The notes below the pieces were generated by a model that worked only from the letters and a program-made list of their open reading frames with translations, did not search any database and was not told where the DNA came from. From positions 62,001 to 126,000 of the forward strand of contig NZ_JAUYRI010000007.1 in the NCBI RefSeq assembly GCF_030696885.1: a DNA stretch of 64,000 bases. Reading direction: 5' to 3'. Below are positions 16,955 through 33,729 of the stretch, one piece after another. A program made the position numbers and the translations under genes. The stretch's first letter is position 1. Each line of letters begins with the position of its first letter. This DNA comes from Thiobacillus sp. (GTDB lineage Bacteria > Pseudomonadota > Gammaproteobacteria > Burkholderiales > Thiobacillaceae).

Positions 16955-19465
<2,511 letters not shown>

Positions 19466-19510
19466 CAACCCACCCTCCGCCAGCAAGCGGAATGAGCGAA
19501 AGGGTAGTGG

Positions 19511-19542
19511 AAAGGCCAACCAGAGAAGGTTGGCCTTTTTTT
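19511..19542 (+). terminator. Rho-independent terminator of gyrB
   Basis: aaaggccaaccagagaaggttggccttttttt hairpin plus T-run. Confidence 0.9.
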
Positions 19543-19560
19543 CGAGCCCGGGCAGGTGGC

Positions 19561-19588
19561 TTGTCTGCTACCGGCCAGAAGCTGTCAT
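19561..19588 (+). repeat. Left copy of imperfect direct repeat flanking the GIY-YIG gene
   Basis: ttgtctgctaccggccagaagctgtcat; 19/28 identical by hand alignment to 21020..21047. Confidence 0.4.
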
Positions 19589-19619
19589 CTGCGGCCATTC
19601 TCCAAAGCGGCCTCTGCGA

Positions 19620-20969
19620 CTATCTTCGTTTTTCTAGCCGCTTCTTATTGGCTTGAATAACCAGCACTGCCTCCTCTATAGACAAGCCTTTCTTCATATG
19701 TCGTCTGAGTGCGTCAGTGCTGATCTCATAGCGTGCAGCACACGCCGTGAGAGAGGGAAATTTATTGCCAAATGCCGTTACATCTACGCCTTGATATTTT
19801 ACTGTCTCGGGTGCACTAGAAATGCCCAAGGCTTGTTCAATTGTCCAGCCGTTAGTTTTGATCCTGCCCCACACAAGTTTATAGTCAAGGCCATGTGTCT
19901 CTGCTGCTTGCTTGATCGAAGAAAAGGTTGCACCACCAACCTCAGTTCTGTTTCTGGAAAATTTCCCTCTTCGTTCGATCTCAGCTGCCTGCTCGGGTGT
20001 CCAGCCGAGGCGTGATACTCGAATATTGAAGACAGACACATCTATCCCGAAATAGTCAGCCGCAGCACCTCTTGAGGGAAATGCCATACCTCCAACAGTG
20101 ATGTGCGTAGGTGTACCAATGGAACCACCAGGGCTTATGTTATAGCCATTTTCGATGGTGCCTCTCTTATGGATTTCGCTGACTTCCTGCTGCTGAAGCT
20201 CAGTAAATGATCTGGCATCCGATCTAAGCAGTTCTATCGAGAAGTTCTCTATCCCATGAAGCCGAATGGCGTTGTAGAGCTTCGTATTGGTTCCCTTTGT
20301 TGCTGACCTCTTGTGGCCACTGAAACGTTGCCATAGAGGGTTGATCGTAATGCCTACGTACTGCTTTCCATTGACCTTATTGGTAACCAGGTAGAGCTTA
20401 TATTCGCCCTGCTCAGTAGCCGGGTACTCCTTCTCATCAACTATCTCGACCTTCCTCCAAAAAGGGTTGGTCCCACCGTTGTTTTGATTCCTGAACCGTG
20501 GGGGTGCCGCCTCAAGTTCTACCGCCTGCTCGGGTGTCCAACCAAGGAGAAGACGTTTTGCTACCAGTTTCTCCTTCTTTCCATAAACCTGAGCCATAGC
20601 CCAACTATTGGGGTAGCGCCTCCCCGCACAGGCGATTTCCTTGGTCTGCTTTGGAGATTTCTTATGATCTTCCAGCCCAACCGCCTGATCTGGAGTCCAA
20701 CCCATCGCTAGTCGCTTATGGATGGTGCCTTCCTCAATTCTGAAATGCTCCGAAGCATCCCGTATTGAGGCAAAAGTGCCCGCACTTGTTGTGAGCTTTA
20801 TGCACCGGCTGGGCTTCTTCTTGTGCGGCTCTAATCCAAGCGCCTCTTCATAAGACCATCCGCTTTTGATGCGTCTCGCAACATTTCCATAGGGCTGCTC
20901 GAAATGGGCTGCTGCCTCTCTCATGGAGGAGAAGGTAATTCCGGCGACAGTGATCGAGACTTTTGCCAT
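19620..20969 (-). CDS. GIY-YIG nuclease-like protein with six flanking DNA-binding-type repeats (homing endonuclease-like)
   Basis: YKLYLVTNKVNGKQYVGIT...RFSGHKRSA...LQQQEVSEI...NGYNISPGG core (about 20115..20408); repeats of the form VxGxxFxSxxxAAxxFxxxxxxVxxRxxxGWTxEQAxxLE, three before and three after; visibly lower GC than neighbours. Confidence 0.85.
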   Translation of the reverse strand: MAKVSITVAGITFSSMREAAAHFEQPYGNVARRIKSGWSYEEALGLEPHKKKPSRCIKLTTSAGTFASIRDASEHFRIEEGTIHKRLAMGWTPDQAVGLEDHKKSPKQTKEIACAGRRYPNSWAMAQVYGKKEKLVAKRLLLGWTPEQAVELEAAPPRFRNQNNGGTNPFWRKVEIVDEKEYPATEQGEYKLYLVTNKVNGKQYVGITINPLWQRFSGHKRSATKGTNTKLYNAIRLHGIENFSIELLRSDARSFTELQQQEVSEIHKRGTIENGYNISPGGSIGTPTHITVGGMAFPSRGAAADYFGIDVSVFNIRVSRLGWTPEQAAEIERRGKFSRNRTEVGGATFSSIKQAAETHGLDYKLVWGRIKTNGWTIEQALGISSAPETVKYQGVDVTAFGNKFPSLTACAARYEISTDALRRHMKKGLSIEEAVLVIQANKKRLEKRR

Positions 20970-21019
20970 CTCCTAATGCTATCTTGGAACCGCTGAATGT
21001 CCGGTCATGTTTAAGCTAA

Positions 21020-21047
21020 TTGGCTGCTTTGGGTCGATAGCCGTCAT
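21020..21047 (+). repeat. Right copy of imperfect direct repeat flanking the GIY-YIG gene
   Basis: ttggctgctttgggtcgatagccgtcat; internal ggct...agcc dyad. Confidence 0.4.
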
Positions 21048-21359
21048 GGAATTGACCCTCGACACCCAAAAAACGCCAAGCGGCCTTAAGCGCTGATTCG
21101 GGGCGGGCCCGTTCCGCAATAAACGCCCGATCAAACCCGCACGCGTAGCTTGCCATCCAGCGCGTCGGTCCTTAACACCTTCCCCAAATACCGCTTCGCC
21201 CAGTCCGCAGGGCCGCGGCCCCGGCTCGCATCAAAAAGCGGAAGCGTCATTAAACCGTAACACTCAATCCCTATCGTAGCGATCGCTGAACGACGGAATG
21301 ACTCGTTCGTGCATTTTGAGACACGCCCCGCCCTCGTTACCCCATTGGAGATTAAGCAT

Positions 21360-22343
21360 ATGGTTCAGAATAAAATCGTTGCCGCACTTGGCTTTGTGGC
21401 CTGCTCGTTGGTCAGCCATGCTGCGCTTGCCCAGGCCGTCAAGGTCGATCCCGCGCTGCCGTCGTACCAGAAGGCCAGCGGTGTGTCCGGTAACTTCACC
21501 AGCGTCGGTTCCGACACGCTGAACAACCTGATGACGCTGTGGGCCGAGACCTACAAGCGCAACTACCCCAACGTCAACATCCAGATCCAGGGTGCCGGTT
21601 CCTCGACCGCGCCCCCCGCGCTGATCGAAGGCGCTGCCAACTTCGGCCCGATGAGCCGCCTGATGACCGCCAAGGAAATCGAGGCTTTCGAGAAGAAGTT
21701 CGGTTACAAGCCCACCCCGGTGCCCGCCGCGATCGACGCGCTCGCCGTGTACGTCAACAAGGACAACCCGATCAAGGGTCTGTCGCTCACCCAGGTCGAT
21801 GCGATCATGTCCGCCACCCGCAAGTGCGGCGGCGCAGCCGACGTCACCACCTGGGGTCAGGTCGGCATGACCGGCGAATGGGCCAGCCGCACCGTCGCGC
21901 TGTACGGCCGCAACTCGGTATCCGGCACCTACGGCTTTTTCAAGGAAAAGGCGCTGTGCAAGGGTGACTTCAAGCGCAACGTCGCCGAGCAGCCGGGTTC
22001 CGCCTCGGTGGTGCAAAGCGTGACCGGCCAGATCGGCGCCATCGGCTACTCAGGCATCGGCTACAAGACCTCGGGCGTGCGTGCGCTGCCGCTGTCGCAG
22101 AAGGATGGCCAGCCCTTCGTCGAACCGGATGCCACGCACGCCATCGACGGCACCTACCCGCTCGCCCGCGTGCTGTACTTCTACGTCAACAAGCGTCCGA
22201 ACCAGCCGCTGGCTCCGCTCGAGCGCGAGTTCGTCAAGCTGGTGCTCTCCAAGCAGGGTCAGGAAGTCGTGATCAAGGATGGTTTCGTGCCGCTGCCTGC
22301 CGCGCTGGCCGCCAAGGCGATGGCTGATCTGGGCATCAAGTAA
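21360..22343 (+). CDS. pstS: Phosphate ABC transporter substrate-binding protein PstS
   Basis: [25 protein letters not shown] signal; [42 protein letters not shown]; followed by pstC/A/B. Confidence 0.92.
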
Positions 22344-22425
22344 GCCTGCCGCTCAATCAAGCCAGGCCGGTCCCCCAGCATCGGGCGGATCGGCCTGGCG
22401 CGACACACTCACGGAGACTCAAATC

Positions 22426-23073
22426 ATGCAGGAAATCAAACGAACCCTTTCTTACGGCCTGGCTTCCGTCCTCGCGCTCGGCGTGCTGAGCGGCTGCGCC
22501 ACGCAGTCGAACACGGCCAAGGCGCCCGAGAGCAAGCCAGCGATGGCCGCGCAGCCTGCTGCCCTGGCTGCGGCGCCGGCGCCAGCGGCCGCGGCCCAGC
22601 CGGCCACGGCCTCCACCCAGCACTACTTTCTGGTATTCCATGAAAACGGCCGGATTTATCCGATCGCCGATGCCAAGAATTACCTGGCCTTTCTCGATGT
22701 CAACGAGCTGATCTACACCCGCACCCGTGTTGGCGAAGGCCCGGCAGGCGAGACCCTCGTGTTCGGCATCGAGAAGAAAGAGGCCGACGACCTGAACAAG
22801 CCGGCCAAAGCCGAGCTTTTATACGACGGCAAGATGGACGTCTCAGGTCCGTTCTACGGCGAGGTGGTGAAGGATGGCCGCTTCCATGTGTTCGGCACCT
22901 GGCAGGACTTCAAGGACTACCTGGTCAACAAGGAAATCACCTACACCTTCACCGAAGTCGGTACTGGCCCCAAGGGTGAAACGGTGATCTATGCGATGAA
23001 CAAGAAGACCAGCGCGGACGGCCGTCCGGTTGCGCTGATCGAGTCCTTCAAGAAGTTCCACAGCATCAAGTAA
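22426..23073 (+). CDS. Putative lipoprotein with two tandem copies of a ~57-aa module, within the pst locus
   Basis: LALGVLSGCATQ lipobox; repeated NELIYTRTRVGEGPAGETLVFGIEKK / KEITYTFTEVGTGPKGETVIYAMNKK. Confidence 0.8.
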   Translation: MQEIKRTLSYGLASVLALGVLSGCATQSNTAKAPESKPAMAAQPAALAAAPAPAAAAQPATASTQHYFLVFHENGRIYPIADAKNYLAFLDVNELIYTRTRVGEGPAGETLVFGIEKKEADDLNKPAKAELLYDGKMDVSGPFYGEVVKDGRFHVFGTWQDFKDYLVNKEITYTFTEVGTGPKGETVIYAMNKKTSADGRPVALIESFKKFHSIK

Positions 23074-23179
23074 GGGCACCACAGCACAGGAATCAGGAAG
23101 GGGCGGGCCCTGTGCCCTCCCCTTCTTTTACTGAAGGGCTCCGGTGTTGCGGCGCAGACAAAAGATAACGCGGTGAATC

Positions 23180-25456
23180 ATGGAAAAGATCGAGACCAAC
23201 ATCAGCAAGGTCGGCGGCTATACCGGCCAGCGCATGGCCAGGGACAGGCTGTTCAAGCATGTCATGACCTTTGGCGGCTTGAGCGTGATCATCGCCATCA
23301 GCGCCATCTTCTTTTATCTCGCGAGCGTCGTCGCGCCGATTTTCATGCCGGCACAGATGGACGATCTGCAGAAACTTTCCCTGCCGAAAAACGGCGGGGG
23401 AGCCACCGTTCACCTGACTTCGGAGGAGCAGGCCGAAATCGGCGTGCGCATGACCGATCGTGGCAGCGTGAGCTTTTTCGATTTGCGTGACGGCCGCCTG
23501 ATGGCCGAAGAAAACGTCGCCCTGCCGGAAGGGTCCGAAATCCGCAGCTTCGCTGCGGGCGACCCCTCGCAGCAGGCGGTGGCCTATGGATTGTCCGATG
23601 GCCGCATGCTGATCCTGGAACAGGATTTCAAGGTCACGTTCCAGGTGGACCCGGAAGACTCCGAAAAGGACATCCGCACCATTACCCCGAGCATCGCCTA
23701 TCCGGCGGGCAGCGAACCCCTGGTCGTCGACGAATCCGGCAAGGGCCTGATGCTTCTCTCCGTCCAGCACAACGAAGAAAACACCTCTGCCGTGGCGCTG
23801 ACTGAGGACAACCGCCTGGTTCTGGCATCCTTCGTGAGCACCAGCAACATGATCACCGGCGAAGTCTCGACCGAACGCTTCAGCGTCGATCTGCCGCCGG
23901 TCGAGGGCGAGATCAGCCAGCTGCTGCTGGAAGTGAAGCAACGCGACCTCTACGTGGTACACGGCGGCCGTTTCGTCAGCCATTACGACGTCATGAACAA
24001 GCAGGCCCCGCGCCTGATGCAGACGGTCGCGCTGGTACCGGAGGGTGAGACCATCACCGCGGCGACGATCCTGAGCGGCGGCTACTCGCTCATCATCGGC
24101 ACCGACCAGGGCAAGGTCGCACAGTGGTTCCAGGTGCGCGGCGACGACAACGTCGACCACCTGACGCACATCCGCTCGTTCAAGCCGATGGTGGGCCGGG
24201 TGACGACCATGGCGCCGGAGCATTTCCGCAAGGGTTTCCTGGCGGGCGACGACCAGGGCAATATCGGTCTCTACTACGCCACCTCCGAGCGCCTGATCCT
24301 CAAGCGCTCGACCGGCAGCGAGCCGGTGCGCGTGGTCGGCATCACACCGCGCGCCAACGCGATCATGGTCGAGAGCGCGGGCGACGCGATCCAGGCGGCG
24401 CGGGTCGAGAATGATTTTCCCGAGATTTCCTTCTCGTCGCTGTGGCAGAAGGTCTGGTACGAGAGCTACCAGGAACCAGAATACAGCTGGCAGTCCTCCG
24501 CCGCCACCTCCGATTTCGAACCCAAGCTGAGCGTCGCCCCGCTCACTTTCGGTACGCTGAAAGCCGCGTTCTACGCGATGCTGGTGGCCGTCCCGCTGGC
24601 GGTGCTGGGCGCCATCTTCGCCGCCTACTTCATGTCGCCGAAGATGCGCGGCGTGGTCAAGCCGTCGATCGAGATCATGGAAGCCCTGCCGACGGTGATC
24701 CTGGGCTTTCTCGCCGGCCTGTGGCTGGCACCCTGGGTCGACAACAACCTCGCCGGCACGCTGATGGCGATTTTCATGCTGCCGTTCAGCTTCGTCATCA
24801 CGGCCTATGTGTGGCATCTGCTACCGCAGCGCCTGACGGCCGGCATCGGCGCCGGCTGGGAAGCCGCCTTGCTGATTCCCGTCATCATCCTGGTGATCTA
24901 TGCGGCGATCCAGCTTGGGCACCCAATCGAGGCCGCCTTCTTCGGCGGCAACATGCCGCACTGGCTGACCAACGAACTCGGCATCACCTACGAGCAGCGC
25001 AACTCGCTGGTGGTGGGCATCGCGATGGGCTTCGCGGTGATTCCCACCATCTTTTCGATTGCCGAGGACGCGGTGTTCAGCGTGCCCAAGCACCTCACGT
25101 CGGGATCGCTCGCGCTCGGCGCGACGCCATGGCAGACCCTGTTCTTCGTCGTGCTGCTGACCGCCAGCCCCGGCATCTTCTCCGCCATCATGGTCGGCAT
25201 GGGGCGCGCCGTGGGCGAGACCATGATTGTGCTGATGGCCACCGGCAACACCGCGGTGATGGACCTGTCCATCTTCACCGGCTTCCGCACCCTGTCCGCC
25301 AACATCGGGGTGGAAATGCCCGAGGCGGCCGTCGGCACCACCCACTACCGCCTGCTGTTCTTCTCGGCGCTGGTCCTGTTCGTGTTCACGTTTTGCGTGA
25401 ATACGGTGGCAGAACTGGTGCGCCATCGCCTGCGCGAAAAATACAGCTCACTTTAA
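23180..25456 (+). CDS. pstC: Phosphate ABC transporter permease PstC with large N-terminal extension
   Basis: C-terminal permease segment (ALPTVILGFLAGLWLAPW ... GSLALGATPWQTLFFVVLLTASPGIFSAIMVGMGRAVGETMIVL); ~400 aa extra N-terminal region. Confidence 0.9.
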   Translation: MEKIETNISKVGGYTGQRMARDRLFKHVMTFGGLSVIIAISAIFFYLASVVAPIFMPAQMDDLQKLSLPKNGGGATVHLTSEEQAEIGVRMTDRGSVSFFDLRDGRLMAEENVALPEGSEIRSFAAGDPSQQAVAYGLSDGRMLILEQDFKVTFQVDPEDSEKDIRTITPSIAYPAGSEPLVVDESGKGLMLLSVQHNEENTSAVALTEDNRLVLASFVSTSNMITGEVSTERFSVDLPPVEGEISQLLLEVKQRDLYVVHGGRFVSHYDVMNKQAPRLMQTVALVPEGETITAATILSGGYSLIIGTDQGKVAQWFQVRGDDNVDHLTHIRSFKPMVGRVTTMAPEHFRKGFLAGDDQGNIGLYYATSERLILKRSTGSEPVRVVGITPRANAIMVESAGDAIQAARVENDFPEISFSSLWQKVWYESYQEPEYSWQSSAATSDFEPKLSVAPLTFGTLKAAFYAMLVAVPLAVLGAIFAAYFMSPKMRGVVKPSIEIMEALPTVILGFLAGLWLAPWVDNNLAGTLMAIFMLPFSFVITAYVWHLLPQRLTAGIGAGWEAALLIPVIILVIYAAIQLGHPIEAAFFGGNMPHWLTNELGITYEQRNSLVVGIAMGFAVIPTIFSIAEDAVFSVPKHLTSGSLALGATPWQTLFFVVLLTASPGIFSAIMVGMGRAVGETMIVLMATGNTAVMDLSIFTGFRTLSANIGVEMPEAAVGTTHYRLLFFSALVLFVFTFCVNTVAELVRHRLREKYSSL

Positions 25457-25468
25457 GGAAGAATCGCC

Positions 25469-27124
25469 ATGCGTAACTGGTACAAAAGCGGAGAACCCTG
25501 GATCTGGACGACGGCCGGCGCGATCGCCCTGTCGCTGGTGGCGGTCTACACTGTGGTCTGGCTCACGGCGGCGCGCGGTCTGACCCATTTCTGGCCCAAG
25601 CCGGTCACCGAGGTGACTTTTCAGGAACGGGATGGCTCCAGCTCGCGCCTGATCGGCGAGATACGCGAGAAGCAGGAGGTGTCGCTCGTCCGTCTGCGCG
25701 AGCAGGGCTACGAGGTCGATACCCAGGACCTGTTTGCCGAGCGTTATCTGTTCAAGGTGGGCAACAAGGACCTCACCGGCGTTGATTTCAAGTGGTATCC
25801 CGCTCCTTTTCTGGGTGAGTTCACGTATCCCAAGGATCTGCTGGCCATCGAACGTCGCGAATGGGGCAACTTTTATGGCCACCTGAAAGCGGTTAAGGAA
25901 GCCGGCGTTGTGGTGGCCGAAGGGCCCGCGGCCTGGGAAGAGGCGCAGAAACGGCTGGAACGCTCCAACGCCCTGTTCAGGGAAGCGCTGCGTATCGAAA
26001 AAAGCGACATCGGCAAGATCAACTATGCGCTGGAAAAAGTTCGCCTGCGTGAACGCGGGCTGGAGATCGATGACAAACTGACTGAAGCCGCCAAGGCCGA
26101 ATTCGCCCGGGAGCGCGAAGCGCGCGAAGCCGACTATCTGGTCTTGCAACAGAAGATGGACCAGCTCCGCGTCGACATCGAGCGCGACAGCGTCACGGTT
26201 GAAACGAACGACGGCCAGTTGGTGGACATTCCGCTGGCCAAGGTGGCCGACATGTACATGCCCAACGCGATGAGCGTGTGGCAGAAGATCGGCTTCTATG
26301 TACACAAGTTCACCGAATTCGTTAGTGATGATCCGCGCGAGGCCAACACCGAGGGCGGCATCTTCCCCGCCATTTTCGGTACGGTGATGATGGTGCTGCT
26401 GATGTCGGTGATGGTCACGCCGCTCGGCATCATGGCGGCGATCTACATGCGTGAATACGCCAAGCCGGGCCCGGTGATCCGCGCCATCCGCATCTCGGTC
26501 AACAACCTGGCGGGGGTGCCCTCCATCGTCTACGGCGTGTTCGGCCTCGGCTTCTTCGTCTATGTGCTGGGCGGCTCGATCGACGAACTGTTTTTCGCGG
26601 CAGCGCTGCCGGCGCCCACCTTCGGCAGCCCCGGCATCCTGTGGGCTTCGCTGACGCTGGCGATCCTGACCCTGCCGGTGGTGATCGTCGCCACCGAAGA
26701 GGGGCTGTCGCGGGTGCCGCGCACCATTCGCGAAGGCAGCCTCGCGCTCGGTGCCACCAAGGCCGAAACGCTGTGGCGCACGGTGCTGCCGATCGCCAGC
26801 CCGGCCATGATGACTGGACTTATCCTGGCGATTGCACGCGCGGCGGGCGAGGTGGCACCGCTGATGCTGGTCGGCGTGGTGAAGCTCGCCCCCAGCCTGC
26901 CGCTCGACGGCAACTTCCCCTTCCTGCACCTGGAGCGGAAGTTCATGCACCTGGGCTTCCATATCTACGACGTCGGCTTCCAGAGCCCCAACGTCGAGGC
27001 GGCGCGCGCGCTGGTGTATGCCACGTCGCTGCTGCTGGTGATCATCATCGTCGTGCTCAACCTGTTCGCGATCCGGCTGCGCAACCGCCTGCGCGAGCGT
27101 ATGCGCGGACTCGAAGGCGTTTGA
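25469..27124 (+). CDS. pstA: Phosphate ABC transporter permease PstA with N-terminal extension (DUF3333-like)
   Basis: GSLALGATKAETLWRTVLPIASPAMMTGLILAIARAAGEVAPLML permease signature; adjacent to pstC and pstB. Confidence 0.9.
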   Translation: MRNWYKSGEPWIWTTAGAIALSLVAVYTVVWLTAARGLTHFWPKPVTEVTFQERDGSSSRLIGEIREKQEVSLVRLREQGYEVDTQDLFAERYLFKVGNKDLTGVDFKWYPAPFLGEFTYPKDLLAIERREWGNFYGHLKAVKEAGVVVAEGPAAWEEAQKRLERSNALFREALRIEKSDIGKINYALEKVRLRERGLEIDDKLTEAAKAEFAREREAREADYLVLQQKMDQLRVDIERDSVTVETNDGQLVDIPLAKVADMYMPNAMSVWQKIGFYVHKFTEFVSDDPREANTEGGIFPAIFGTVMMVLLMSVMVTPLGIMAAIYMREYAKPGPVIRAIRISVNNLAGVPSIVYGVFGLGFFVYVLGGSIDELFFAAALPAPTFGSPGILWASLTLAILTLPVVIVATEEGLSRVPRTIREGSLALGATKAETLWRTVLPIASPAMMTGLILAIARAAGEVAPLMLVGVVKLAPSLPLDGNFPFLHLERKFMHLGFHIYDVGFQSPNVEAARALVYATSLLLVIIIVVLNLFAIRLRNRLRERMRGLEGV

Positions 27125-27166
27125 TCGCCCCCTACCCCTACAACGATAGACCCGAAGGATTTAGAA

Positions 27167-27994
27167 ATGAGCGAAGCCAGCCCGAAAACCCACGCGATCA
27201 AACTCGCCGACCTGGGACGCACGCAGACGGAAGAGACGGATGAAGTGGCGATCCGCGTCGAGAATCTCGATCTGTATTACGGTGAGGCGCAGGCTCTGAA
27301 GAACGTCAGCATGAACCTGCCAAAAAACCGCGTGACCGCGTTCATCGGCCCCAGCGGCTGCGGCAAGTCGACGCTGCTGCGCTGCTTCAACCGCATGAAC
27401 GACCTGGTCGAAATCTGTCGCGTTGACGGCAAGATCCTGATGGAAGGCAAGAATATTTACGACCGTGACGTCAACGTCGCGTTGCTGCGCCGTCGCGTCG
27501 GCATGGTGTTCCAGAAGCCCAACCCGTTTCCCAAGTCGATCTTTGAAAACGTGGCCTACGGCCTGCGCATCATGGGGGTCAACAATCGCAGCACGCTGGA
27601 CGAGGCGGTCGAGAAGGCCTTGCGTGGCGCCGCGCTGTGGAACGAGGTCAAGGACCGTCTTGACGAGAACGGCCTCAGCCTGTCCGGCGGCCAGCAGCAG
27701 CGTCTGGTGATTGCGCGTGCGATCGCGCTGGAGCCAGACGTGCTCTTGCTCGACGAACCGGCTTCCGCGCTCGACCCCATTTCCACCGCCAAGATCGAGG
27801 AGCTGGTCAACGAGATGAAGAGCCAGTACACCATCATCATCGTCACCCACAACATGCAGCAGGCCGCTCGCGTATCCGATTACACCGCCTTCATGTACAT
27901 GGGCGAACTGATCGAGATCGGCCGCACCAACGACGTGTTCCTGACGCCCGCCGTCAAGCAGACCGAGGATTACATCACCGGCCGCTTCGGCTGA
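27167..27994 (+). CDS. pstB: Phosphate ABC transporter ATP-binding protein PstB
   Basis: [54 protein letters not shown]. Confidence 0.97.
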
Positions 27995-28005
27995 TCGCGG
28001 CACGG

Positions 28006-28827
28006 GTGATGCGGGTGGATAGTCCGGGTACAGCGATGCGCCCGCCCCTTTCGAGCCAGCCTGGTGTGCTGCGGCCGGATGCCGAGGCTGACATCTCGGC
28101 GATCTTTGCCCCGCGGCTCTATCTGGTCGATGCCGATCCGCAGACACGCGCGCAGCTGGTGTCGTGTTTGCGCGAGAAAGGCTTTGACGTCGTCGCGGCG
28201 ACGGACATGAACGCCGCGCCCCCGCCGGCGGATGTGCTGATCGTTGCACTGGCCGGCCTGGGACCGCGTGCAAACGTACCGGAATGGCTCGCGGCCAAGC
28301 CGGCCACGCCGCTGATCGTGCTGGATCGGCCCCAGGTGTTTCCCGGCCGCACCGCACCGCTGAGCTTCGCGCCGGATGCCCGGCTCAGCCTGCCGGTCCA
28401 GCCGCGCAAGCTGGTGGCCACGATCAGACAGGCGCTGAGCCTGGCGCGCATCGAATCCGCCGATCGCTATGCAGCGACCGCGCGCACCTATCGCTTTGCC
28501 GGCTGGCTACTGGATTCCGAAGCGCGCCAGCTGACCGCGCGCGATGGCACGACGATTCTGCTCGACCCGCGGGAATGCGACGTATTGAAGGCCCTGCTGA
28601 CGTTTCCCCGCCAGGTGCTGACGCGCCCGCACCTGATTGCCATGGTCTGGGGGGCGGGCGAAGCCATCGAGAACAGGACACTGGATCGCCCGATCACGCG
28701 GCTGCGTCGTCACCTGGGCGACGACGTGCGTTTTCCGGTATTGCTCAAAACGGTAGTCGGCGTTGGTTATCGGCTCGACGTCGACGTCGAGAAAACCGAC
28801 TCGCCGGCGGACGCAGCCGCGGGGTAA
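28006..28827 (+). CDS. OmpR-type winged-helix regulator with degenerate receiver domain
   Basis: C-terminal wHTH (LLDPRECDVLKALLTFPRQVLTRPHLIAMVWG...RLRRHLGDDVRFPVLLKTVVGVGYRL); receiver lacks the expected Asp (ADVLIVALAGL). Confidence 0.8.
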   Translation: MMRVDSPGTAMRPPLSSQPGVLRPDAEADISAIFAPRLYLVDADPQTRAQLVSCLREKGFDVVAATDMNAAPPPADVLIVALAGLGPRANVPEWLAAKPATPLIVLDRPQVFPGRTAPLSFAPDARLSLPVQPRKLVATIRQALSLARIESADRYAATARTYRFAGWLLDSEARQLTARDGTTILLDPRECDVLKALLTFPRQVLTRPHLIAMVWGAGEAIENRTLDRPITRLRRHLGDDVRFPVLLKTVVGVGYRLDVDVEKTDSPADAAAG

Positions 28828-28834
28828 GGCCGGG

Positions 28835-29422
28835 TCAGTCGCCCTTCGCCCCGGCTTTTCTCAACGCGTCCAGCCACTTTTCAGCCTGCTTCGCATCCAG
28901 GTTTCCCGTCCCGCCGATCAGCGTCTCGTGCACCGGGGCGAAGCCCACGAAGCCGAGGATATTGCGTTCCAGCGCACGCACGCTGTGGGCGCGAAACACC
29001 CAGCGATAGAGTGCTGCCGGCATGCCCATGGTGACGACGACGCGGGCGGAGCGGCCGGCCAGGCGCTTCTTGAACATGGCTTGGCTGTCGCTGCGCTCGA
29101 TGGCGAAGCCGGGACGCAGGACCTGCTCCAGAAAACCCTTCAGCAACGCCGGCATGTCGCCGAGCCAGAGCGGAAAGAACAGCACCAGGTGCCCGGCCCA
29201 GAGAATGTCGTCCTGCGCGGCGGCGAGACCGGACGGCACGCTGCCCTCCTCCCAGTTGGCGGGGCTGCGTAGCAGCGGAAAATCGAGCGTGGCCACGTCG
29301 ATGCGCCGGACTTCGTGGCCGGCGGTGGTGGCACCGTCGGCGTAGGCGTCCGCCAGCGCGTGGCAGAGATGCGGCCGGAGGGTGTCCGGGTGGCCCTGAA
29401 TCAGCAGGATGTGTTTGCTCAC
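28835..29422 (-). CDS. NAD(P)H-dependent oxidoreductase, flavodoxin-like fold
   Basis: VSKHILLIQGHPDTLRPHLCHALADAY; LVLFFPLWLGDMPALLKGFLEQVLRPGFA; probable GTG start. Confidence 0.85.
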   Translation of the reverse strand: MSKHILLIQGHPDTLRPHLCHALADAYADGATTAGHEVRRIDVATLDFPLLRSPANWEEGSVPSGLAAAQDDILWAGHLVLFFPLWLGDMPALLKGFLEQVLRPGFAIERSDSQAMFKKRLAGRSARVVVTMGMPAALYRWVFRAHSVRALERNILGFVGFAPVHETLIGGTGNLDAKQAEKWLDALRKAGAKGD

Positions 29423-29493
29423 AGTGCGCTCCAAGCAAAGACCGGCTTTCAATGTAGCGGATTTTGCGGGGCCGGGAGGGGAAACGCGGCGCG

Positions 29494-29518
29494 AAAAAAA
29501 GCCCGGCAGGGCCGGGCC
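29494..29518 (-). terminator. Intrinsic terminator downstream of the 29539..30684 gene
   Basis: Minus strand reads cggcccggccctgccgggcttttttt. Confidence 0.8.
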
Positions 29519-29538
29519 GATTCAGGAGGAGAGGTGCT

Positions 29539-30684
29539 TTAGTTGTTCTTGGTAGCGGTCGGCAGGCCGGCCTCACGCCATTCCGGGAAACCGCCGCGGA
29601 ACCAGTGGACGTTCTTGTAACCGGCCTTGATCGCCATCACCGCGGACTTGTAGCCGCGCCAGCAGATGGTGCCGTCGCAGTAGACGATGAAGGGCGTGGT
29701 CTTGTCCTTGGGCAGGCGGCTGAGTGTCCACTGGTCGTCGCCCGGATCGAAGCCGACTTCCTTGGCGCTGCCTTCCTTGTAGGTGAGCGAACGCGCGCCC
29801 GGGATATGGGCCTTCTCGAACTCCTCTTCCACGCGCACGTCGTACACCGCCATGCCCTTGGCGATCAGGGCCTGGGCTTCGGCGGCGGTGATGACCTTGG
29901 CGCCGGGCAGCACGGTCGGGGTGGTGTTCAGCATCGAGCCGACGATCTTGAAGTCGTTCTTTGTGGCGGTGCTGAGTGCAAGATTGAGGCTGTTACCGTT
30001 TTGCAGCGAGGTGGACAGCTTCTTCTGGGTGCTGGCCGACACGGTCTCCGGCAGCACGCTCAGCGCGCGCAGCGGGACCGCCGTGCTGGTGAACACGATG
30101 CGTCCGCCGTTGGCGGCGGTCCAGGTCTTGGCTTCTTCTTCGGTCGCGACCGCGAGGTCGTAGCGGCCGATTTTCAGGCCAAACAGCGGTGCCTCCGCCA
30201 TGCGGTGAAACTTCATCTCGGCAAAGTCGGCCTTGCTCAGGCCGCGACTGTTGATTTCGCTGCGTGCAATGCCGCCCATCAGCGATTCATAGTCAGGTAC
30301 GCCGAGCCGGGCGCCGGATTTCGCGGCCAGTGTGCCTTTGAAATTGGGGCTGGCGACGAACGCGGCGGCGGTGGTTTCGTCGGACTTGAGCAGGGGCTCG
30401 AACTTGAAGCGGCCCAGGTTGGCGATGACCTGGGCGGGGCCGAACACCATGTCAAGGTTGCCGTCGCGCGCCTGCTTGAGGGCGGCAAAGCCCCGGGTGT
30501 AGTACTGCAGGCGGACCGGCTCGCCAATCGACTTTTCGACATCCTTGACGAATGCGCGATAGCGCTGGGTCGTGGCCATGTCCGCCAGGGATTCATGCTG
30601 GTCCAGCACGATGCCAAGGGTGAGCGGGGCTGCTTGCGCCGTGCCAGCAAGCAGCATCAGGGGAATCAGGGCATAACGCAACAT
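29539..30684 (-). CDS. PhnD-like periplasmic substrate-binding protein fused to a C-terminal rhodanese domain
   Basis: Signal peptide MLRYALIPLMLLAGTAQA; SBP-like LQYYTRGFAALKQARDGNLDMVFGPAQ; rhodanese-like VYDVRVEEEFEKAHIPGARSL ... FIVYCDGTICWRGYKSAVMAIKAGYKNVHWFRGGFPEW. Confidence 0.85.
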   Translation of the reverse strand: MLRYALIPLMLLAGTAQAAPLTLGIVLDQHESLADMATTQRYRAFVKDVEKSIGEPVRLQYYTRGFAALKQARDGNLDMVFGPAQVIANLGRFKFEPLLKSDETTAAAFVASPNFKGTLAAKSGARLGVPDYESLMGGIARSEINSRGLSKADFAEMKFHRMAEAPLFGLKIGRYDLAVATEEEAKTWTAANGGRIVFTSTAVPLRALSVLPETVSASTQKKLSTSLQNGNSLNLALSTATKNDFKIVGSMLNTTPTVLPGAKVITAAEAQALIAKGMAVYDVRVEEEFEKAHIPGARSLTYKEGSAKEVGFDPGDDQWTLSRLPKDKTTPFIVYCDGTICWRGYKSAVMAIKAGYKNVHWFRGGFPEWREAGLPTATKNN

Positions 30685-30766
30685 GGCAGTCTCCTGTTGT
30701 GTTGGTGTGTTCAATTGCCGGCCGGGATGAGCCCGGGATCGGTCAGTACGGATGGTCCAGCAACAA

Positions 30767-31144
30767 TCAGGCCAGCCAGCTCGTCAGGGTGGTGCGCAGG
30801 GCGGTTTCGTCGACCGGCAGCGGCAGCGCGGCATCGATGCGCAAGCGGGCGCGAACGGTGTCGAGCACCGCCTGATGGGCGGTTTCGTAGAAAACCAGGA
30901 TGCGGGTCTGCGGCGTGGCCTGCGCGGCCGCCAGCAGGGATTCCAGGTTGGACAGGCGGTCGCGAAAGTCGGTCTGGTGATAAAAGTCCGCCACGATGAC
31001 CGCAGGCGACGCTTTGCGCAGCGCGCTGATGGCCTTGCGCTCCGACCATTCGGTGACCACGGCGTAGCCCAGTTCCTGAAACAGCGTCTTGTAACCGGCT
31101 GTGCCGATGAAGGCATTGACCATCAGCAGGCGCGGCGCGCTCAT
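30767..31144 (-). CDS. Small receiver-like/hypothetical protein
   Basis: 125 aa ORF with receiver-like pattern (PRLLMVNAFIGTAGYKTLFQELGYAVV ... AVIVADFYHQTDF); overlaps topA stop by a few nt. Confidence 0.6.
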   Translation of the reverse strand: MSAPRLLMVNAFIGTAGYKTLFQELGYAVVTEWSERKAISALRKASPAVIVADFYHQTDFRDRLSNLESLLAAAQATPQTRILVFYETAHQAVLDTVRARLRIDAALPLPVDETALRTTLTSWLA

Positions 31145-33729
31145 GCGGCCGGTTTTTTGCCGGCGGGTTTTTTGGCAGTTGCAGCCTTGGCCGGGGCTTT
31201 TTTGGTGGCGGGCTTTTTCTTCGCGGCGGGCTTTTTCGCGTCCTTGGCGTCGGCGTCGGACGTTTTGGCTTTCTTCGCCGCCGCCGGCTTGGCTGCGGTC
31301 TTGCGCGCCGGCTTCTTGGCCGGGCCCTTGGCCACGCGCGCGGCGATCAGCCCAAGCGCTTCATCCAGCGTGATTTCTTCCGGCGTGATGTCCTTCGGCA
31401 GCGTGGCGTTGGTGCTGCCGTGCTTGACGTACGGGCCGTAGCGGCCGCTACGCACCGTGATGTCCTTGCCGTCCTCCGGGTGCGGGCCCATGTTCTTCAG
31501 TACCGAGGCGGCCGAATCGCCACGCGGCTCGCGTTCCATCGCCAGCACTTCGAGCGCGCGCGCCAGATTGATTTCGTAGACGCTGTCGGCCTTGGGGATC
31601 GACTTGAACTTGCCGTCGTGCAGCAGATAAGGGCCGAAGCGGCCGTTGTTGGCGACGATCGGCAGCCCGGTGGTGGGGTGATGCCCGACTTCGCGCGGCA
31701 GCGAGAGGAATTTCAGCGCCAGTTCCAGCGTCGCGCTGTCCAGCGGAATGTCCTTCGGCCACGAGGCGCGGCGCGGCTTCGGCGCCTTCTTGTCTTCTGG
31801 CATTTCGCCGATCTGCACATACGGCCCGAAGCGGCCCGACAGCAGTTTGACGTCGAGCCCGGTGGCGGGATCCTTGCCGAGGATGTTGTCGCCCTCGGCG
31901 GTGGCGGCGTGCAGCGGGCGCGTGTAATCGCACTCGGGATAGCCGGAGCAGCCGATGAAGAGGCCACGTTTGCTGGCCTGCATGAACAAGGGCTTGCTGC
32001 ACTTGGGGCAGGGCTCCATGATCGGGCAGCCGCGCTCGACATCCTGCTTGGCTTTCAGCTCGCCATCAAACCCTTTCCAGAACTCGCCCAGCAACTGCGA
32101 CCACACGCGAGTGCCGTTCGACACATCGTCGAGCTTGTCTTCGAGCTTGGCGGTGAAGTCGTAGTCGACGTAATGGCTGAAATGACGGGTGAGGAAGCAG
32201 TTGACCAGGCGGCCGATGTCGGTCGGCTGGAAGCGCTTTTTCTCCAGCACCACGTACTCGCGGTCCTGCAGCGTGGAAATGATGCTGGCGTAAGTGGACG
32301 GGCGGCCGATGCCGTGTTCTTCCAGCGCCTTGACCAAGGAGGCCTCGGTGTAGCGCGGCGGCGGCTGGGTGAAGTGCTGTTCGCCGTAGAGCTTGTCGAC
32401 CGGCAGGGTTTCGCCCTCGACCAGCGCCGGCAATTTGGATTCGCCCTCTTCTTCCTCGTCGTCCTGATACACCGCGAGAAAACCGGCGAAGGCCAGTGTC
32501 TGCCCGGTGGCGCGGAAGGTGCCCTCGCCCACCGTGATGTCGGCGGCGACGGTGTCGAACTGCGCCGGCGTCATCTGGCAGGCGACGGTGCGCTTCCAGA
32601 TCAGCTCGTAGAGGCGGATCTGGTCGTGCGTCAGAAAGGGTTTTACTGCTTCGGGCGTGCGCATCACCGCGGTCGGGCGCACCGCCTCGTGCGCTTCCTG
32701 CGCGTTCTTGGTCTTGGCCTTGTAGGCGATTGCGGCGGGCGGCAGGAAATCCTTGTCGAAGTTGGTGCTCACATACTTGCGGATGTCGGTGATGGCTTCC
32801 TGCGCCAGGTTGACCGAGTCGGTCCGCATATAGGTGATGAGGCCGACCGGACCTTCGCCGAGGTCGACGCCTTCGTACAGCTGCTGCGCGGTCCGCATCA
32901 CGCGGTCGGTGGTCATGCCGAGCTGGCGCACGCCGGCCTGCTGCAGCGTCGAGGTGGTAAAGGGCGCGGCGGGGTTGCGCGAGCGGCGCTTCTTCTCGAT
33001 GCGCATGACCCGCGCGTCTTTTGCTTCGAGCGTCGCCAGCCATTCCTTGCTGCGCGCCTCGTGTTCGACCGTGAACTGCTCGAGCTTCTCGCCGCGGAAA
33101 TGGGTGAGTTTTGCGGTGAAAGCCTGGCTGCCTTTATGGCTGTCGAGGTGCAGCGTCCAGTATTCGCGCGGATCGAACGCCTCGATCTCCAGCTCGCGCT
33201 CGACGATCATCCTGAGTGCGGGCGATTGCACGCGGCCGGCGGACAGGCCCGGGCTGATCTTCTTCCACAAGAGCGGCGACAGGTTGAAGCCGACCAGATA
33301 ATCCAGTGCGCGTCGCGCCTGCTGCGCGTCGACCAGGTCGGAGGCGATTTCGCGCGGGTTGCGCACCGCGTCCTGGATGGCCGATTCGGTGATCTCGTAG
33401 AAGGCCACGCGCTTCATCGGCGTCTTGACCTTGCGTTCCTTGAGGATTTCGCTGATGTGCCAGGAAATCGCCTCGCCTTCGCGGTCCGGGTCGGTTGCCA
33501 GCAGCACCAGATCGGCTTTTTTGGCCGCCTTGACGATGGCCTCGACGTGCTTGGCGTTGCGCTCGATCACCTGGTACTTCATGGCGAAGGTTTCGGTATC
33601 GACCGCGCCGGTTTTCGGCTCCAGGTCGCGCACATGGCCGTAGCTGGCCAGGATGTCGTAGTCGTCGCCGAGGTATTTTTTCAGCGATTTGGATTTTGAC
33701 GGCGACTCGACGATGACGAGTTTGGACAT
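31141..33729 (-). CDS. topA: DNA topoisomerase I with Lys/Ala-rich C-terminal tail
   Basis: MSKLVIVESPSKSKSLKKYLGDDYDILASYGHVRDL; GLITYMRTDSVNLA; zinc-finger CPKCSKPL...GCSGYPECDY. Confidence 0.98.
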   Translation of the reverse strand: MSKLVIVESPSKSKSLKKYLGDDYDILASYGHVRDLEPKTGAVDTETFAMKYQVIERNAKHVEAIVKAAKKADLVLLATDPDREGEAISWHISEILKERKVKTPMKRVAFYEITESAIQDAVRNPREIASDLVDAQQARRALDYLVGFNLSPLLWKKISPGLSAGRVQSPALRMIVERELEIEAFDPREYWTLHLDSHKGSQAFTAKLTHFRGEKLEQFTVEHEARSKEWLATLEAKDARVMRIEKKRRSRNPAAPFTTSTLQQAGVRQLGMTTDRVMRTAQQLYEGVDLGEGPVGLITYMRTDSVNLAQEAITDIRKYVSTNFDKDFLPPAAIAYKAKTKNAQEAHEAVRPTAVMRTPEAVKPFLTHDQIRLYELIWKRTVACQMTPAQFDTVAADITVGEGTFRATGQTLAFAGFLAVYQDDEEEEGESKLPALVEGETLPVDKLYGEQHFTQPPPRYTEASLVKALEEHGIGRPSTYASIISTLQDREYVVLEKKRFQPTDIGRLVNCFLTRHFSHYVDYDFTAKLEDKLDDVSNGTRVWSQLLGEFWKGFDGELKAKQDVERGCPIMEPCPKCSKPLFMQASKRGLFIGCSGYPECDYTRPLHAATAEGDNILGKDPATGLDVKLLSGRFGPYVQIGEMPEDKKAPKPRRASWPKDIPLDSATLELALKFLSLPREVGHHPTTGLPIVANNGRFGPYLLHDGKFKSIPKADSVYEINLARALEVLAMEREPRGDSAASVLKNMGPHPEDGKDITVRSGRYGPYVKHGSTNATLPKDITPEEITLDEALGLIAARVAKGPAKKPARKTAAKPAAAKKAKTSDADAKDAKKPAAKKKPATKKAPAKAATAKKPAGKKPAA

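Follow-up and report, generated by a model that had tools for sequence, protein, structure and literature searches.

A free-standing GIY-YIG homing-endonuclease-like gene with three NUMOD1-type repeats on each side of the nuclease, in the gyrB-topA interval of a Thiobacillus genome

The 449-amino acid protein encoded just downstream of gyrB in this Thiobacillus genome is a member of the GIY-YIG homing endonuclease class. It has the domain, the catalytic residues, an I-TevI-like fold and NUMOD-type modules. Its distribution is sporadic and mobile. The modules stand in two arrays of three, one on each side of the nuclease; with this symmetric 3+3 layout the protein is a rare variant within a class already known, not a new kind of system. 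The family, the fold, the residues and the distribution make it probable that the gene encodes a free-standing homing endonuclease of the GIY-YIG type that came from phages and was borne on phage or island DNA. The window (the whole stretch of DNA that was analysed, 64 kb) also holds a variable interval between gyrB and topA, and all features are collected in Table 1.

Table 1. Features of the window, with strand and the evidence on which each rests
Feature	Position	Strand	Basis
GIY-YIG homing-endonuclease-like gene, R3-GIY-R3, 449 aa	19620..20969	(-)	ORF, domain and repeat scans
N-terminal array, three NUMOD1-like beta-hairpin + HTH repeats (residues 4-47, 57-100, 111-153)	20511..20960	(-)	repeat HMM, leave-one-out, model
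GIY-YIG catalytic domain, residues about 188-285 (Y193, Y204, R215, E262, N277)	20115..20408	(-)	Pfam match, orthologue alignment, I-TevI fold match 1ln0
C-terminal array, three NUMOD1-like repeats (residues 288-332, 342-384, 395-437)	19659..20108	(-)	repeat HMM, leave-one-out, model
gyrB terminator stem CCAACC-AGAGAA-GGTTGG; edge of conserved gyrB sequence	19516..19533	(+)	kept in most relatives examined
Variable interval, gyrB to the conserved gene before topA; endonuclease, pstSCAB, others	19466..30769	(.)	congener comparison
PhnD-like gene; in some relatives also found in the gyrB-topA interval	29542-30783
topA, right-hand anchor; nearer to gyrB in relatives	about 31144..33729	(-)	congener comparison

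Nuclease core, repeats and composition

The original prediction, made from the letters alone, described a GIY-YIG-like core with kept catalytic-type Y, R, E and N positions, flanked by three NUMOD- or helix-turn-helix-like repeats per side, and this description has held up in all its parts. It placed the gene at 19561-21050; the gene is indeed there, but these bounds are slightly generous. For the nuclease, Pfam PF01541 (GIY-YIG) scores 26.7 bits (cut-off 22.6) over residues 192-231, NCBIfam TIGR01453 scores 70 bits against a cut-off of 56.05, and among the PHROG matches are several homing endonuclease families, including phrog_314 and phrog_7168. Y193, Y204/G206, R215, E262 and N277 are invariant across the protein and its two orthologues, one in Rubrivivax albus and one in a genome of the same order (G157). 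A sequence-only search of solved structures returned nothing significant (I-TevI, E 0.67), but the fold search was clearer: with a predicted model of the protein, the top Foldseek match is the I-TevI catalytic domain 1ln0 (probability 1.00, E 3.9e-3, TM-score 0.75 by target length). The I-TevI DNA-binding domain gave a weak match only.

The repeats are recognised by Pfam as PF20987 I-TevI_DNA-bd (28.2, cut-off 27) and PF07453 NUMOD1 (25.8, cut-off 22.8). A repeat HMM that places the same six copies from which it was made is a circular fit, and hence every copy was tested with an HMM built from the remaining five alone. These leave-one-out scores range from 17.8 to 53.8 bits, against a maximum of 6.7 in 60 shuffles of each, so the repeats are far beyond chance. 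An AlphaFold2 model based on a shallow alignment of four sequences, and of low global confidence (mean pLDDT 67.8, pTM 0.26), has a beta-hairpin followed by three helices in each of the six repeats, which makes them six like units, and a GIY-YIG strand-helix order in the centre of the protein; the predicted overall arrangement of the six modules is of low confidence. Long, modular DNA recognition by the six repeats would be plausible.

The gene is single-copy in this genome and lies well inside a contig of 147.8 kb. The fall in GC that had been noticed within it is real. Its GC is 0.50 and its GC3 0.51, compared with 0.63 and 0.87 for gyrB and 0.64 and 0.86 for pstS, and GC3 in the neighbouring genes is 0.82-0.87; this composition marks the gene as foreign. 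The pattern that had been named as evidence against a recently acquired element, a gene fixed at this locus with matching GC, was not found, as the gene occurs in 1 of 56 congeners and the 55 others have no orthologue.

Orthologues and known relatives

The two full-length orthologues, at 48% (R. albus) and 51% (G157) identity, have the same 3+3 layout, and the sample of the order contained one full-length orthologue. In one congener, G006, the only counterpart is a more distant GIY-YIG protein, 564 amino acids long and with another N-terminal part. In 16 of 18 comparisons a repeat best matches the same-position repeat of an orthologue, and the 3+3 array was therefore present in the common ancestor of the orthologues. 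Identity between orthologues is 62% in the GIY-YIG part and 48% in the recognition helices. In R. albus the gene lies in a prophage, directly after the terminase large-subunit gene and with a phage-type repressor downstream. In G157 it is found in a 3.6-kb islet (L077:7734-11430) that also holds a hypothetical gene and a small gene for an HNH endonuclease. One edge of the islet is a complete tRNA-Arg(acg) gene, and the other an exact 47-bp repeat of the 3' end of that gene. GC within the islet is 0.52-0.64, against mostly 0.65-0.73 in the surrounding DNA, and none of the islet ORFs was seen to encode an integrase. Both orthologues have a higher GC than the window gene. One orthologue is in a prophage and the other in a tRNA-Arg islet, so phages and islands carry this family along. 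A search for a target motif common to the flanks of the three orthologues gave nothing above shuffles.

Among 96 GIY-YIG frames in relatives, which are loci retrieved by similarity searches and not a census, the 3+3 layout is found in the two orthologues only; the other arrays are 0+6, 0+5, 0+4, 2+1, 1+2 and 1+1, or clear repeats are few or lacking. Phages and viral contigs carry relatives whose arrays are shorter or one-sided, and two of these are set between terminase gene parts. In NUMOD-bearing GIY-YIG endonucleases the NUMODs are typically C-terminal, and the bacterial members are thought to be phage-derived (PMC1564403). The window protein shares with the I-TevI type (TIGR01453; PF01541 with NUMOD1/PF20987) the fold, the catalytic residues and the NUMOD1/I-TevI HTH-type modules, but it differs in having six modules in two arrays flanking the nuclease, and its gene is not intron-encoded. 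Two-sided modules mark a variant: the C-terminal order is typical and not obligatory, so class membership stands. The terminase-gene endonucleases of Staphylococcus phage PH15 and Enterococcus phages BC611/Entf1 have a homologous GIY-YIG core, but are about 200 amino acids long with an N-terminal nuclease and at most one weak repeat, and their genes lie between terminase gene parts. The GIY-YIG endonuclease of Burkholderia phage BcepSaruman is likewise free-standing with repeats on both sides (1+2); it differs in its length (357 amino acids), its fewer repeats, its 26% identity and its position adjoining a thymidylate synthase gene.

The gyrB-topA interval and the competing explanations

gyrB is intact, ending at 19465, and the endonuclease gene converges on its terminator stem. 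An Rfam scan of 19000-21600 for a group I intron or other RNA gave only a sub-threshold microRNA match. An endonuclease encoded in a group I intron was thus rejected, and the earlier view of a free-standing gene outside any intron or intein is upheld. In the congeners examined, gyrB is followed by varying cargo and then by a conserved hypothetical gene and topA. There is no cargo at all in G002, a DNA methyltransferase and a Vsr-like nuclease in G006, and large helicase- or restriction-like genes in G004 (the last two by reading of the ORFs). Since the cargo differs between congeners, the spot is generally permissive. Alignments of relatives to the gyrB side stop at or just past its stop codon.

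It is worth noting that here the gyrB-topA interval contains the pst cluster, while none of the 55 other congeners examined has gyrB on the same contig as pstS. This placement is a relocation or, less likely, an assembly join. The source genome is a draft of 35 contigs, and a misjoin at the gyrB-pstS junction might conceivably be present, though both sides and topA are of the same genus by sequence. No tRNA was found in the window, and consensus scans for promoters and terminators did no better on the sequence than on shuffles. The flanks of the gene are single copy in the genome and were dismissed as a repeated genomic element.

It had been proposed that the gene is a homing cassette at the gyrB flank. 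In this explanation the endonuclease would recognise the gyrB 3' flank as its landing site, and indeed the 3' end of the gene is 155 bp past the gyrB stop. Some free-standing endonucleases sit beside the genes they target, as the T4 seg genes do. However, unrelated cargo occupies the same spot in congeners and the orthologues lie away from gyrB, which weakens a gyrB-specific reading. Nor do the ends of the gene carry repeats: there is no exact direct or inverted repeat of at least 10 bp flanking it in the window, and an imperfect inverted alignment of the flanks (score 19, shuffles at most 16) was discarded as an end repeat, being gappy and spread over 150 bp of each flank. Divergence along gyrB, also near the gene, is the same as that among relatives, so there is no foreign co-converted tract in gyrB; a dip at 18801-19200, considered as a sign of co-conversion, is equally present among relatives. 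The comparison of downstream regions that had been suggested found no empty site for the endonuclease alone among the 55 congeners, where gyrB and pstS never share a contig; the locus is rearranged. Recognition of the gyrB flank is for these reasons considered improbable.

A defence or anti-competitor nuclease, kept by host or prophage for cutting invading phage DNA, is also unlikely. It would fit the restriction-modification and helicase-like genes that ORF reading places at the gyrB-topA spot in G006 and G004, and the PADLOC models HEase and UzuA match the protein (E 1.3e-6 to 5.8e-4, for models without a curated cut-off). The phage homing endonuclease SegB is reported to aid phage evasion of defence (PMC13096335), and genes of this kind can thus be of consequence in conflicts involving phages. 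On the other side, no partner gene or defence system adjoins the gene, a single congener carries it, and its closest matches are homing families. Somewhat easier to entertain, though still doubtful, is inert cargo, a leftover phage endonuclease gene whose mobility or activity has been lost. No phage genes were seen around it within the window, where it is the lone foreign gene of the region, but its reading frame is intact and the catalytic-type residues and all six repeats are kept. The three unrelated contexts of the orthologues could equally mean that these genes are plain cargo of phages and islands, a point that counts against the homing explanation preferred below.

The free-standing homing endonuclease is the preferred explanation. 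The gene would have come in with the DNA of a phage or an island. Cutting would fall to the central GIY-YIG domain, as family, fold and conserved residues suggest, and the six NUMOD1-type HTH modules, three per side, would grip a long DNA site. An allele without the gene would be cut and repaired from a gene-carrying copy, and the gene would spread in this way, as is general to the class; homing of this particular gene is thus suggested by analogy with its class. The position next to gyrB would most likely reflect landing in a cargo-tolerant chromosomal spot, and not recognition of gyrB.

NUMOD1-type repeats in other proteins

In the loci examined, the NUMOD1-type repeat occurs in one to eleven copies and with different partners. 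It stands beside a GIY-YIG nuclease in 3+3, 0+6, 0+5 and 1+2 layouts, is present twice in a recombinase-like protein and eleven times where no nuclease is recognised, and also accompanies the MUG113/T5orf172-like tail of f237 ORF8. The recombinase-like case, a protein of 723 amino acids (L079:5159-7330), contains two NUMOD1-like repeats and weakly matches Phage_integrase, and it may join the repeat to a recombinase-like core; it is set in a stretch of 50% GC with other large ORFs and a thymidylate-synthase-like gene beside it. The eleven or so copies are in a 760-amino acid protein on the Alteromonas mediterranea plasmid pAMCP48-600 (L082:2483-4765), in which Pfam found no nuclease domain. ORF8 (Vpf497, L055:1435-2928) of Vibrio phage VfO3K6/f237 is a PCR marker of pandemic V. 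parahaemolyticus and is believed to be an adherence protein (PMC3878053). An alignment covering 82% of its length links it to the window protein (E 2e-16); it has about seven NUMOD1-like repeats, and ends in a C-terminal MUG113/T5orf172 GIY-YIG-like stretch that is below cut-off (E 0.012 and 0.022). Judged by these matches, ORF8 is probably not an adhesin but a nuclease-like protein that binds DNA.

A more speculative idea, to which we give little credence, is that the NUMOD1-type repeat serves as a DNA-reading unit that is shuffled and strung into arrays, and that the 3+3 form reads a long site on both sides of the cut, each module perhaps taking one stretch of bases. The symmetric six-module form is naturally suited to testing whether DNA is read additively by NUMOD1 arrays, and the three orthologues, in which the order of repeats matches and the recognition helices have diverged, lend themselves to a comparison of targets. 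For pandemic Vibrio, the repeat family further points to a DNA-binding, nuclease-like protein as the product of a marker gene in wide use.
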